A DNA stretch of 64,000 nt, taken from Ignavibacteriales bacterium (GTDB taxonomy: Bacteria > Bacteroidota > Ignavibacteria > UBA10030). Numbering within the stretch: the first letter of the stretch is position 1; the number at the start of each line of letters is the position of its first letter. The position numbers and the translations under genes are program-made. Positions 6,019 to 11,667 of the stretch are shown here, piece after piece. The notes beneath the pieces were generated by a model. That model was not told the DNA's origin. It did not search any database and saw only the letters and a program-made list of their open reading frames with translations. The stretch spans positions 1 through 64,000 of the forward strand of contig JAPLFR010000002.1 in assembly GCA_026390575.1 (NCBI GenBank). The letters run 5' to 3'.

Positions 6019-6058
6019 TTGAGATTACTCTTATGAATAAAGAAAATAAAAATATTCT

Positions 6059-6226
6059 TTACTGTTTCGGTAATTTAATCTCTTGCGGATTTACCCGAAC
6101 AATACGCTGTATGAACTCATGGAAAGGTATGGCTTTTCCTTTCATGTTTCCATCGAAGATCATTTCAATCTTTGTTTTGCGTCCGCGTTTAGTGGCATGT
6201 TTATTCGTTGGTTTGGGTTTGTTCAT
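6059..6226 (-). CDS. 55-residue basic protein, translationally coupled
   Basis: ATG at 6226 overlaps the stop of the upstream gene as ATGA; the stop codon is at 6059-6061. The N-terminal half is Lys/Arg-rich (MNKPKPTNKHATKRGRKTK). The C-terminal half contains FHEFIQRIVRVNPQEIKLPKQ-type residues, a short amphipathic segment followed by a fixed tail. A second copy of the tail survives at 8658-8711, where six of seven codon differences are silent in this frame. That supports coding on this strand rather than the opposite one. The function is unknown; small basic proteins with a V-x-x-x-E tail commonly accompany other small genes, and a partner or antitoxin-like role is possible but untested. Confidence 0.7.
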   Translation of the reverse strand: MNKPKPTNKHATKRGRKTKIEMIFDGNMKGKAIPFHEFIQRIVRVNPQEIKLPKQ

Positions 6227-6897: not shown

Positions 6898-7812
6898 CTA
6901 TTTATTAATCAAGGCTCTATATGTCAATCTTCCTTCACATGCGCCTAACAATAAACCAAATCTTACAGAGTCATTTTGTTTGCGAGAATTGTAGCGATAT
7001 TCAAACTCTTCGCAGTATCTATGTAAATGTTTTTTAGAGGTATGATGATATATACCAACAATACCGCGTTTAAGCAAGCTCCAAAATCCTTCAATGGTGT
7101 TTGTGTGAATGATACCATCAACGTATTTGTGTGCGCTATGGTTAATAACTTTATGATCTTTGAACTCTTTATCCAGTCCTTTGTATGCAGTGTAGTTGTC
7201 TGTCATAAGGGTAGAATCGGGAGTTACACCTTTTCTGATAATTGGCTTTATGGTTTCTGCTTTAACGTTTGGAATAGTTTCTATTCGAGCATTTCCACCG
7301 CGTTCCACCATACCAAAGACCGGGGATTTTTCTGGATTGAATCCTTTGCCATAACCGTGTCTTGTACCGCCAATAAAGGTTTCATCAACTTCAACGATAC
7401 CACCAAGAGGTTTTTCAAAAGAACCCGTTGTCATGGTAAGCCTTATTCTATGCAACATGTGCCAAGCAGTAGCTTGACGAACACTAATATCTTTAGCAAG
7501 CTGGCAGGAAGAAATACCTTTCTTGTGTGCAGACACAACGAACATCGCATGAAACCACTTCTGCAAAGGAAGTGCGGAATCCTCGAAAATAGTGCCAACT
7601 TTAACAGAAAACGGCTTTTTGCAAGCAGAGCATTTAAAGAGTTTTCCACCTTGAATCTTATACATCTTCTCAGTGCTTCCGCAATGGACGCATACGGGCT
7701 TATCTCCCCATCTGGATTGAATAAGAAACTCTCTACAAGATTCTTCAGTAGGGAATCGTTTAATGAGTTGAAGCAGGTTATTGATCTTGGGTTCTTCGAT
7801 TGTCTTTTTCAT
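6898..7812 (-). CDS. IS1595-family transposase
   Basis: A 304-residue full-length transposase. The N-terminal zinc ribbon has C41-x2-C44 and C61-x2-C64. It is followed by an HTH-like segment (about 97-122) and a DDE/DDN-type catalytic domain with D143 in VDETFIGG, D205 in TDNYTAYK, and the N238-x2-E241 region in HTNTIEGFWSLLK. The C-terminal GIYHHTSKKHLHRYCEEF block is characteristic of the IS1595/ISSpo3-like group. All landmarks are intact, so the protein should be active. It is the first gene of a four-gene unit inside inverted repeats. Confidence 0.95.
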   Translation of the reverse strand: MKKTIEEPKINNLLQLIKRFPTEESCREFLIQSRWGDKPVCVHCGSTEKMYKIQGGKLFKCSACKKPFSVKVGTIFEDSALPLQKWFHAMFVVSAHKKGISSCQLAKDISVRQATAWHMLHRIRLTMTTGSFEKPLGGIVEVDETFIGGTRHGYGKGFNPEKSPVFGMVERGGNARIETIPNVKAETIKPIIRKGVTPDSTLMTDNYTAYKGLDKEFKDHKVINHSAHKYVDGIIHTNTIEGFWSLLKRGIVGIYHHTSKKHLHRYCEEFEYRYNSRKQNDSVRFGLLLGACEGRLTYRALINK

Positions 7813-7971: not shown

Positions 7972-8430
7972 CGCAATCAGGTAAAGTGACGTAAAAGTGA
8001 CAGAAAAGATGAAAAAAGACTTTGATACCGTAGATAGAGGAAATTTGAGGTAAGATCGAAAAAAGAGTTACTTAAAGCTTAAATAGTGTTGTGCTAATTG
8101 GGTAAAGTGGATGTAAGCGCGGCAGACTTTAGTAAAATATTTTTGCTTGTATTATAGAGAGATGAAAAAGTTTTTGCTGATATTAATAGAGAAGACTTGT
8201 TGCAATCAGGTAAAGTGTGCAAAAGTTGTGAAGATTGTGGAAAAATATCTTGATACCATAGATAGGGAACACTTGGCGTAAGTCCTAAAGAAAGAGTTAC
8301 TTACAGCATAAAAAGTACTGTGTTAATTGAGTAAAGTGAGTGTAAATGTTGAAGGATTTAGAAAAAAGTTTTTGCTTGTTAATAGAGAGATGAAAAAGTT
8401 TTTGGGATTTATATAGAGAGATCTCTGAAA
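7972..8430. repeat. Non-coding tandem repeat, ~229-bp period with half-units
   Basis: Two diverged copies start at about 7972 and 8201. Shared landmarks in the same order are CAATCAGGTAAAGTG, GATACC[GA]TAGATAG, GAGTTACTTA[AC]AGC, AATTG[GA]GTAAAGTG and TAGAGAGATGAAAAAGTTTTTG. The box AAT[TC].[GA]GTAAAGTG recurs four times, near 7974, 8093, 8203 and 8324, at 110-120 bp spacing. So the array is really four ~115-bp units in an A-B-A-B pattern. No coding frame follows the period. The right flank of the IS shares TACCGTAGAT with it. Confidence 0.75.
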
Positions 8431-8445
8431 TATTAATTGAATAAC

Positions 8446-8547
8446 GGTAGTCGCGAACTCCCGCCTGCCAAAGTCTCGCTTGTGGGACGGCGGGAAGGTT
8501 AGTTCGCAATTGTGTTCAGAAAACGCAATCTGAAAAGCGCGACTACC
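8446..8547. repeat. 102-bp nested palindromic (clover-leaf) element
   Basis: The outer arms GGTAGTCGCG (8446-8455) and CGCGACTACC (8538-8547) are perfect complements. Inside are a first hairpin made from GCGAACT / AGTTCGC (8453-8459 and 8501-8507) reinforced by CCCGCC / GGCGGG, and a second hairpin TTGTGTT / AACGCAA. The result is a three-way junction. It is G+C-richer than the surrounding DNA. It could be a REP/MITE-like mobile palindrome or a structured RNA; no gene is attached. Confidence 0.7.
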
Positions 8548-8657
8548 ATAATAAAATCGATTATTCAGATGTCTCATATAGTAAATCATTGATTCAATTT
8601 TTTTGTTCAATTATCGTAGAGGACATAAATGAAAAGCAATAATAAAAAAACTAGTCC

Positions 8658-8777
8658 TTATTGTTTCGGCAATTTTATTTCTTGTGGATTTACCCGAATA
8701 ATGCGTTTCATCGTTTCCAAAAATGACTGAACTTGTTCAATGGGTTTCTTGACTTGGGGCTTAGTTGTTGTTTTTTT
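8658..8777 (-). pseudogene. Fossil copy of the 55-residue gene
   Basis: The last 15 codons before the TAA at 8658-8660 encode RIIRVNPQEIKLPKQ, matching the tail of the 55-residue protein (6059-6226) except for one Val/Ile change. The frame is open back to 8777 but has no plausible start: the only ATG gives 17 residues, and an in-frame stop lies at 8778-8780 next to a run of nine T. Some 30 bp further along, an ATGTCC at 8626 echoes the start of the small membrane gene that follows the intact copy. This is probably the remnant of an older copy of the passenger cassette. Confidence 0.6.
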
Positions 8778-8810: not shown

Positions 8811-8860
8811 CTCTTTTCTGATAAACTTATAAATAAAAACTCACTTCATTCCCCTATGTA

Positions 8861-8909
8861 AAATGTCTGACATCTCCTTTTTGACTCGTTAGGAAGATGT
8901 CAGACATTT
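8861..8909. repeat. 15-bp perfect inverted repeat behind the T9SS gene
   Basis: AAATGTCTGACATCT (8861-8875) and AGATGTCAGACATTT (8895-8909) are perfect complements with a 19-base loop. Each arm is itself nearly palindromic (ATGTC-N-GACAT). It starts 20 bp after the stop of the 912-residue gene and lacks a T run. It is more likely an mRNA 3' stabiliser or protein site than a terminator. Confidence 0.7.
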
Positions 8910-8928
8910 ACTCTACTCATCTACTCGC

Positions 8929-11667
8929 TTATTTCATCAGGAGCATTCTCTTCGTCTGGACTGAGGTGCCAGCTATCAGACGATAAATATACGTTCCGCT
9001 CGACAACCTGTTCGCATTAAATTGGATAGAGTATAGTCCAGAACTTAATTGATCATTCACAAGTGTCGCTACCTCATGACCCAAGAGATCATAGACTTTC
9101 AACGACACGAAATTATTTTCTTGAATCGCAAAACTTATTTCTGTACTCGGATTGAATGGATTCGGATAATTATCATATAGTTTAAATCCACTCGGCTGAT
9201 CGGATTCTAGGAGTGATAATTCAGATACGTTCTTTCCTAAAGAGGATGCTTCCACAGTATACGCAACGCCATCATTGATGACATTCTTAGCACCTTGGCT
9301 CTTAGGAACCCATACTTCATAGCTTGCCTGTCCTTTATTACCGTTTGCATCCAGCACTATGAGGTTAATTGTATATACTCTCCCGTTTCCCCAATCTTGT
9401 CGTTCTGCGCGCAAGTTTACGCACTTTGCGTCATTGCTAATAACAATATCGTTATACGTGTTACCATCACCGGGAACGTTTTCCGGTTCGTCGCTGCTAA
9501 CAGAAGCAATTCGGATTTTGCTAATTTCAATCGGTAATCCTTTGCTGTCATTGGCAGAAACGACAATGTCAGCGACTTTGATGTTGACGTATTTATGATT
9601 TGCCGGCCATAAATTAATATGCGTGTCCTTCACCACAATTGTGGGCGGTGCTGCAGCCACAACATTAATGATGACATCATCGGAAGCGGTCAAATGGCCG
9701 TCAGACACTACAAGTGTTATGGTATGAGTCCCAACCGGTAACGTTACTGCAAGTTGCACACCTGTACCAAGGATGTTTGTTCCTTCATTCCAAGAATACG
9801 TCAGAGCATCTCCATCTGGATCTGATGAAGCTGAACCGTTCAGTGTCACTTGAACACCTTCATTAACCGTTTGATCTGACCCTGCATTGGCAACAGGCGG
9901 GTGATTTATTGTTGCTAAAACAGTCACAACAACAATATCAGAACATGTTCCACCATTATTATCGTTAACTGTTAACGTAATAGTATGAATACCCACTGGT
10001 AATGATACTGTAATTTGCGGAGCTGTTCCAAGTGTCGCCCCTCCTTCTTGCCATAAATATGACAACACATCTCCATCCGGATCTGAAGAAGCTGAACCGT
10101 TGAGTATTACTTGTGTACCCACGGTAACAGTTTGATCCGGGCCCGCCTTGGCGATAGGAGGCTGATCAGGAGAAATTAAGTTGCGTGATATCGAGAATGA
10201 ATTACCAAAATAATTAGCAGTCAAAATATCCGGCTTGCCATCTCCATCTATATCACCGATCTTCAACCCATAAGGAGCAAGTCCAGTCGATATATCGACC
10301 TTAGGGGCAAAAGAATCTAGCGTAACATTACCGCTGGCACATATATTAAGAAATATTGAAACTTTTTCACTGGTGCTATTCGCTGTTACAATTTCCGGCT
10401 TACCGTCGCCATTCAAATCACAAAGTGCAACATCATATGGATTATTAACAGTGGCACTTGCAGTCGAGAAATCGACTTTCGGAGCAAACGATCCTGTTGT
10501 GATATTTCCGGTAGTACCTATGTTTTGAAAAACAGAAATCGTATTGCCCATAACATTTGCGACGACCATATCCATTTTCCCATCGCCATCGACATCACCA
10601 ACCGCAACACCGATCGGATTTTCTCCTGTTGCAAAATACACGGGTAATGCGAACGTTCCTGATGATATGCCATAACCTGTACCTATATTCTGATACACCG
10701 ATACACTATTGATCGTATTATTGGTAATCACAATGTCCGGTTTCCCATCACCATCGATATCTTTTATTGCTGCTCGATACGGATTTCCTGAAGCTGGAAT
10801 ATGAACTCCTGAAGCAAATGACGTTGAACCGATCGTGCTTATGTTTCGTAACACAGAAATTGAAGTGTTGTTGGCAGTGACAATATCAGGTTTTCCATCA
10901 CGGTCAAGATCACCAATCGCCAAACTAATGACTCCTGCTCCCGTCTGGAAGTTCACTCTTGGGGCAAAGGAAATGCTTCCGCTGGTACTCATGTTCCGAT
11001 AAACTGAAACTGTCGCTTCGCCACCATTGCAAACGATAATATCCGGCTTACCGTCACCGTCTATATCACTAACAACTACTCCCATAGGATTATTTCCAGT
11101 TGGTACGTTCACCTTTGCTGCGAATGATCCTGACGAGATAGTACCGCTTATGCTTATGTTTCTATAAATGGAGAGAGTGTTGTTACTCGAATTTGAAACG
11201 ACAACATCCGTTTTACCATCACCATCTAAATCACTAATCGCAATATCAAATGAGTACGCATCATCGAGGAAATCTACATTCGAGGCAAATGATGATGCTC
11301 TTATGGTTGTACTGCCCGTGAAAGTTGTTACAAACGGCGCATTGGAATATGCCGTCAATCCTGTTACAACGTCTGTTACGGATAACGGTTGGTATGTTGC
11401 GCCAACAGGAACATTTACTGTGAGTGATGTTGAACTTGCCGATGTTACGACAGCTTTCACAGGACCAAAATAAACTATATTGTTCGCTGGAATAGAATTA
11501 AAGTTCGCACCGTTGATTGTGACACTTGCACCTATCGGACCCGAGGCCGGAGAGAAGGAGGCAATAGAAGGAACTGCACCTTGTGTCCTCACCTCATTTG
11601 CATAGAGTAACGTGAGTACGACAATGAAGAAAATATTTTTTATGAACGAACTTTTAACGAGTTGCAT
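8929..11667 (-). CDS. T9SS-secreted FG-GAP/PKD surface protein
   Basis: A 912-residue protein with a signal peptide at 1-29. It has an IPT/TIG domain (33-117) and seven FG-GAP/VCBS-type repeats (145-495) with calcium-loop motifs of the D-x-D-G-D-G-K-x-D type. Two PKD-like Ig domains follow (503-584 and 589-670, both with NGSASSDPDGD), then a beta domain (675-792). The C-terminus is a T9SS type A sorting domain (830-912) with YPNPFNPSTEISF and a final KRMLLMK. The product is exported by Sec, crosses the outer membrane by the type IX system and is attached or released after CTD cleavage. FG-GAP propellers suggest ligand or polysaccharide binding. One repeat has DLDRDG, a slightly altered loop. 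The gene stands alone with its own terminator. Confidence 0.93.
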   Translation of the reverse strand: MQLVKSSFIKNIFFIVVLTLLYANEVRTQGAVPSIASFSPASGPIGASVTINGANFNSIPANNIVYFGPVKAVVTSASSTSLTVNVPVGATYQPLSVTDVVTGLTAYSNAPFVTTFTGSTTIRASSFASNVDFLDDAYSFDIAISDLDGDGKTDVVVSNSSNNTLSIYRNISISGTISSGSFAAKVNVPTGNNPMGVVVSDIDGDGKPDIIVCNGGEATVSVYRNMSTSGSISFAPRVNFQTGAGVISLAIGDLDRDGKPDIVTANNTSISVLRNISTIGSTSFASGVHIPASGNPYRAAIKDIDGDGKPDIVITNNTINSVSVYQNIGTGYGISSGTFALPVYFATGENPIGVAVGDVDGDGKMDMVVANVMGNTISVFQNIGTTGNITTGSFAPKVDFSTASATVNNPYDVALCDLNGDGKPEIVTANSTSEKVSIFLNICASGNVTLDSFAPKVDISTGLAPYGLKIGDIDGDGKPDILTANYFGNSFSISRNLISPDQPPIAKAGPDQTVTVGTQVILNGSASSDPDGDVLSYLWQEGGATLGTAPQITVSLPVGIHTITLTVNDNNGGTCSDIVVVTVLATINHPPVANAGSDQTVNEGVQVTLNGSASSDPDGDALTYSWNEGTNILGTGVQLAVTLPVGTHTITLVVSDGHLTASDDVIINVVAAAPPTIVVKDTHINLWPANHKYVNIKVADIVVSANDSKGLPIEISKIRIASVSSDEPENVPGDGNTYNDIVISNDAKCVNLRAERQDWGNGRVYTINLIVLDANGNKGQASYEVWVPKSQGAKNVINDGVAYTVEASSLGKNVSELSLLESDQPSGFKLYDNYPNPFNPSTEISFAIQENNFVSLKVYDLLGHEVATLVNDQLSSGLYSIQFNANRLSSGTYIYRLIAGTSVQTKRMLLMK

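Follow-up and report, generated by a model that had tools for sequence, protein, structure and literature searches.

A probable IS5-family MITE with a REPIN core and a palindrome nested in a hairpin loop in an Ignavibacteriales genome

Anatomy of the locus

The window, a stretch of 64,000 nucleotides at the start of contig C2 of an Ignavibacteriales genome (G000; 3.82 Mb, 16 contigs), contains a 158-bp inverted repeat with the following parts:

8413-8417: left flank ATAGA, equal to the right flank ATATA at four of five bases
8418-8575: whole probable MITE (shell 1), 158 bp; the ends match the 12-bp terminal inverted repeat (TIR) shared by 39 copies and two IS5-family insertion sequences (ISs)
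8418-8429 (+ strand): left TIR GAGATCTCTGAA, two mismatches to GAGACATCTGAA
8446-8547: REPIN core, two GTAG-tagged REP hairpins in inverted orientation; a RAYT-like gene lies in a like array in genome G007
8446-8459 (+ strand): REP 1, 5' half GGTAGTCGCGAACT, aligning to the uninserted sibling REP GGTAGTCGCGAACTTTAGTTCGCG
8460-8498: 39-bp G+C-rich palindrome in the REP 1 loop, a gap relative to siblings at GAACT^TTAGTTC
8499-8508 (+ strand): REP 1, 3' half TTAGTTCGCA
8509-8523: 15-bp linker separating the REPs, with the 63-bp REPIN spacing of C13:34034-34096
8524-8547 (- strand): REP 2 (inverted), stem decayed; REP pattern match C2:8524-8547 and a row in the REP alignment
8564-8575 (- strand): right TIR GAGACATCTGAA, perfect
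8576-8580: right flank ATATA, putative target duplication

No transposase gene lies within the 158 bp: the open reading frames of at least 60 amino acids (aa) that cross the element are only two overlapping minus-strand frames. When the 39-bp loop insertion is disregarded, the element measures 119 bp, like its sibling copies. The one-base difference between the flanks holds for a strict reading of the ends; an exact ATATA is found (8411-8415) only if the left end is taken two bases longer. The flank is itself a repeat that ends in GAGAGAT, which makes the reading of this end ambiguous.

The preliminary description of this DNA had reported a clover-leaf palindrome with perfect 10-bp arms at 8446-8547. 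That structure is real: the outer arms GGTAGTCGCG (8446-8455) and CGCGACTACC (8538-8547) are exactly complementary, and the inner stems described with them are present as a 6-bp CCCGCC/GGCGGG stem within GCGAACT/AGTTCGC and as TTGTGTT/AACGCAA (one G-T pair). The G+C richness claimed for it is borne out as well, at 55% in the core compared with 42% in the window and 27-46% in neighbouring 100-base steps. Folded as single-stranded RNA, the 102 bases reach -44.7 kcal/mol as against -28.2 kcal/mol for shuffled sequences (z -4.9; none of 200 shuffles as good). The arms had also been taken as the ends of the element, and here the description needs correcting: they mark the REPIN boundary, while the inverted repeat, in an extension that had been missed, continues outwards to the true transposon ends at 8418 and 8575 (38-nt arms with 74% complementarity). 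Folding of all 158 bases as DNA gives a z score of -6.2.

Several other features are found nearby. An IS1595-family transposase gene (6898-7812, - strand; PF12762, NF033547) adjoins the element; it belongs to a different IS family, and no link between it and shell 1 was found. An A+T-rich repeat containing GGTAAAGTG is present in two imperfect copies (7973-8192 and 8202-8419, 76% identity over 224 bp) and ends exactly at the MITE. A 62-bp stretch occurs at both 6045-6106 and 8644-8705 (82% identity), in each case within a short reading frame; by eye, the two frames start alike. Another strong palindrome, AAATGTCTGACATCT...AGATGTCAGACATTT (8856-8912), lies directly downstream of an FG-GAP/PKD gene (8929-11667, - strand) and includes TGTCTGACATCT, which bears only a loose likeness to the shell end.

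Copies, target duplications and related insertion sequences

A search of the genome with the clover-leaf gave a second strong match on contig C13. This copy is 119 bp long, has perfect GAGACATCTGAA at both ends and lies between two TATTA flanks; used as a query, it retrieves copies on C2 (the window copy), C13, C9 and C8. Looking for further genomic copies was the check suggested in the preliminary description, and with four copies of shell 1 in the genome, the absence of any other copy, which it had named as grounds for giving up its reading, does not apply. DNA matches to the C13 copy were detected in 8 of the 32 same-family genomes to which this comparison extended, and a sequence-only model of the ends matches 21 of the 32, at a loose cut-off that lets in chance hits. 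The gene neighbourhood of the C13 copy, near pyrE, has matching genes in all six genomes of the genus; no clean empty site was seen among them, because the intergenic stretch aligns only in the genome of origin. A distant-mode search of plasmid and phage collections gave no match, a pattern scan of the genome contig collection for the shell plus GGTAGTCGC returned 0 stretches, and two scans of the viral contig collection returned 0.

Paired copies of shell 1 were assembled from fetched stretches on end sequence alone, yielding 39 copies from 10 genomes and 6 genera. Pairs scoring 24 or less were left out of the duplication test, as were six rows by name, which were either less-favoured alternatives at a locus or spurious pairs of low score at L032 and L056. 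The 5-bp flanks are identical in 18 of the 39 copies (mean 1.08 and maximum 6 in 20,000 partner shuffles), and at least four of the five bases agree in 26 (mean 4.34 and maximum 13, again in 20,000 shuffles). When flank lengths from 2 to 9 were compared for the first 13 copies, only 5 stood out.

The shell 1 TIR, GAGAC.TCTGAA, is 12 bp long, and the same ends occur together with IS5-family transposases in L092 and L093. Each of the two TIR pairs there brackets a transposase gene, at a spacing of about 1.2 kb, and the exact duplications are AAATT/AAATT and TTTAA/TTTAA. The enclosed proteins (338 and 327 aa) match the IS5 family transposase model NF033581 at 252 and 261 bits (cut-off 140), and both carry the DDE domain PF01609. 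These ISs reside in Ignavibacteriae bacterium fen_1254 and Ignavibacteria bacterium RIFCSPLOWO2_12_FULL_56_21; a transposase scan of the genome contig collection found only these two, which were already known. Since its TIR and 5-bp duplications match those of IS5-family ISs of about 1.2 kb from related Ignavibacteria, we take the element to be an IS5-type MITE: the TIR is held in common with a full-length IS, and the duplication has the length found in the parent (5 bp). Relatives of the IS5 transposase (E ≤ 1e-10) were found in 2 of the 32 family genomes, and G000 is not one of the two; the copies in the window's genus are therefore orphans at present. The window copy itself is a relic, with a decayed REP 2, a decayed left end and no IS5 transposase relative in its genome.

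The REPIN core

The arms of the core belong to the repeat GGTAGTCG-N5-TTNA-N5-CG, in which a GTAG tag precedes a 7-bp stem with TTTA or TTCA as its loop. The available part of PMC8266576 describes a TTTA loop in the Marinomonas REP, in which loop changes at certain positions abolish activity. With up to one mismatch allowed, the pattern has 17 matches (7 + 10) in G000 as against 3 (1 + 2) for the reversed pattern; the corresponding counts in genome G008 are 43 and 4. Among 21 distinct perfect REPs, 96.6% of 147 stem cells are paired, and 30 cells are changed on both sides compared with 8.9 after shuffling; sliding the partner strand lowers pairing to 20-38%. The core thus has the GTAG tag 5' of the hairpin, the two inverted hairpins and the repetition in the genome by which GTAG REPs and REPINs are recognized.

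In G007, which is of the same genus, a gene for a 161-aa Y1 transposase lies inside an array of GGTAGTCG hairpin dimers. Its product matches PF01797 (34 bits), and its best model is the NCBIfam REP-associated tyrosine transposase (69.3 bits, below the cut-off of 80). Y1 genes are present in 30 of the 32 family genomes; all 13 Y1 loci of G000 lack GGTAGTCG hairpins to a distance of about 1 kb. REPIN dimers free of a shell also occur, for example L208, L213 and L219.

Exchange of cores and a second shell

The cores of shell 1 are not uniform, and they are exchanged between genomes. Classified by regular expression, 9 of the 39 copies have a GTAG core, 25 a GTCA-type core and 5 others; the GTAG cores come from the window's genus, those of GTCA type from other genera. 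The letters at and before GTC, also read by regular expression, are TGTC (31), CGTC (7) and AGTC (7), and an AT stem base is seen by eye in the shell 1 copies of G023 and G010. These other cores have a CGTC/TGTC tag, A-T pairs at the base of the stem and an inverted dimer arrangement, as CGTC REPs do, and GTCA-type cores tagged TGTC or CGTC fit the definition of the CGTC superfamily in the accessible text of PMC3733652. A fourth kind of core is seen in L105/L072 (G005) and L106 (G006), where shell 1-like ends surround a single perfect hairpin, AGATTCTTCTCCCGA...TCGGGAGAAGAATC.

In a second shell, which has the unrelated ends GAGGYTGNCCAAAAAGT, the same 63-bp GTAG REPIN is found in six copies in G000, and GTCA-type cores are found at L230 and L233. 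Across the family, both core classes occur among 56 copies of shell 2 (by regular expression, with 7 of the 56 matching more than one class). This set and the 26 copies used for the duplication test include some overlapping alternatives, which were resolved by score. No target duplication of 2-10 bp beyond chance was detected in the 26 copies (p 0.03-0.05 at 6-8 bp, with no exact match), and inverted flanks give a weak sign (p 0.015-0.14 for 4-12 bp). A search for a transposase of shell 2 found none, and none of 26 fetched Y1 loci has a convincing end of shell 1 or shell 2. The shell 2 end presumably resembles the ends of IS1182-type elements. In G000, L201-L206, L230 and L233-L235 are MITE-like copies of shell 2; some seem to lie inside further palindromes, such as ATCCCG...CGGGAT around L202, with weak support.

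A length of 119 bp recurs with different partitions: 28+63+28 for GTAG cores in both shells, 26+67+26 for a GTCAC core in shell 1 of G010 and a GGTAGGAC core in shell 2 of G003, and 25+69+25 for a GTCAT core in shell 2 of G000. Lengths of 118-120 bp account for 9 of the 39 shell 1 copies and 22 of the 56 shell 2 copies, counts that include copies of shared ancestry. Other lengths are 139 (G023), 129/130 (G019/G030), 131 (G030) and 140 (G021), and the element lengths show no significant helical phasing at 10, 10.5 or 11 bp (p 0.10 at best).

Insertions in hairpin loops

The G+C-rich hairpin at 8460-8498 is missing from sibling copies and splits REP 1 in its loop, between GAACT and TTAGTTC. In the C8 copy, too, the first REP is interrupted in its loop, by another insertion. 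Shell 2 of G000 gives similar pairs: L230 and L233 share a core, one with a 34-bp loop insertion and the other lacking it, and the loop insertion of L234 is missing from L201-L206. Judged by local folding, 13 of 17 insertion sites in a hand-picked, non-exhaustive list fall in a hairpin loop, where 5.7 are expected; the p value of 0.0003 is optimistic because some rows share ancestry (L060/L097, L263/L268). Two of the 19 listed rows (L098 and L286/L290) were passed over for want of a marked site; L098 sits at the border of shell and core, and counting it in makes the result 13 of 18. Third-level insertions outside loops are L098, L248, L256, L268 and L276.

A 25-bp palindrome, GCCAGCCCGCTACGCGTTCTGGCGG, lies directly before the GTAGG tag in the shell 2 copies L263, L268, L269, L271, L283 and L285 of G011/G026. 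Its position is at the border rather than in a loop, and by eye it differs by one base in L283/L285.

Origin of the element

We consider it very probable that the element is a non-autonomous IS5-family MITE with a REPIN as its centre and a third palindrome in the loop of REP 1. Judging from the ends and duplications, the 119-bp unit would have been mobilized in trans by a DDE transposase of the IS5 family, through its 12-bp terminal repeats, with a 5-bp duplication as the outcome. The REPIN core belongs to the GTAG REP family, presumably spread by a Y1 (RAYT/TnpA-REP) transposase as single-stranded hairpins. The third, G+C-rich palindrome, whose insertion is seen by comparison with siblings, would then have entered the loop of the first REP in the window copy. 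The preliminary description had named a Y1 (REP-type) or a DDE transposase as alternative agents; both are retained, for different layers: an IS5-family DDE enzyme for the shell and a REP-type enzyme for the core. The nesting is most likely governed by a preference of palindromic elements for entering at hairpin loops and palindrome centres, where the DNA is exposed in single strands or cruciforms.

The element could instead be a REPIN only, moved by a Y1 transposase, with the flanking GAGACATCTGAA repeats being merely a preferred palindromic target. The shell-free dimers L208, L213 and L219 are compatible with this, as is the report, in the consulted portion of PMC3733652, of some REP dimers inside palindromes. 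However, the duplications lie outside the shell ends, these ends equal those of full IS5 elements, and unrelated cores are found within copies of the same shell, so that we regard the explanation as improbable. We give still less weight to two others. A conserved structured RNA (the other possibility raised in the preliminary description) or bidirectional terminator would account for the strong fold, the covarying REP stems and the intergenic position, but there are no Rfam matches in the window and the covariation is that of REP paralogues scattered over genomes; moreover, copies stand at unrelated places with target duplications, and the core is swapped for unrelated palindromes. A tRNA scan of the window found nothing. 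It is similarly improbable that shell 2, and perhaps shell 1, is moved by TIR-associated Y1 transposases (TIRYTs) instead of DDE enzymes. TIRYTs with long TIRs are described in the accessible part of PMC3733652, and shell 2 has no target duplication beyond chance (2-10 bp, 26 copies); against this, the shell 1 ends match IS5-family elements with duplications, and a convincing end of either shell is present at 0 of the 26 fetched Y1 loci.

The broader reading of the IS5-type MITE and its relatives as a family-wide modular system, in which unrelated shells carry interchangeable GTAG and CGTC/TGTC cores and loop palindromes in a unit tending to 119 bp, is one that we offer tentatively and hold to be doubtful. 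If it is true, the core may itself function in the MITE, for instance as a cruciform joining the two ends, and CGTC-type REPs would owe their spread to DDE transposases, as the carriers so far missing. To our knowledge, no dedicated transposase is known for these repeats.

Relation to known systems

As a rule, MITEs and REPs are regarded as distinct kinds of small bacterial repeat, served by different enzymes. In the present case, one shell that duplicates 5 bp holds either REP superfamily and is linked to a full-length transposon. Repeats of different origin in bacteria may travel nested in one another, as a palindrome in a REPIN in a MITE, and loop nesting would offer a simple stepwise route to long, intricate intergenic palindromes. 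How CGTC repeats move is the open question that closes PMC3733652, as far as its available text goes; CGTC-type repeats in IS5-type shells with target duplications would be one testable answer. A literature search, with most subscription journals outside its scope, returned neither interchangeable REP cores in transposon or DDE-like shells nor loop-in-loop palindromes.

Parts of the arrangement are already in print, going by the portions of the papers available: REP dimers inside palindromes (PMC3733652) and a GTAG REP inside a MITE (PMC5896051). The latter, QMITE2 of Coxiella burnetii, is similar in containing a GTAG REP, but its REP is described as an IS1111 target and its duplications are 7-11 nt; the same portion describes no core exchange, second shell or loop-in-loop palindromes. 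The GTAG-15 dimers of Anabaena variabilis and CGTC-1 dimers of Halothiobacillus neapolitanus are, as here, REP dimers in the middle of a longer inverted repeat, although in the accessible text of PMC3733652 the outer palindrome has no transposase link and is not reported with REPs of more than one class. REPINs/BIMEs and TnpA-REP systems (PMC3116915 and PMC8266576, as partly available) share the GTAG tag and the two inverted hairpins, and the Marinomonas REP (PMC8266576, same portion) the TTTA loop; the REPINs described here, in contrast, ride inside DDE-type ends. Finally, ISs that insert in REPs, such as IS1397, ISKpn1 and ISNm1106 of the IS5 family, are, in the available part of PMC1525189, mobile DNA targeted to REP palindromes, as is the third layer here, which differs in being a short, coding-free palindrome.
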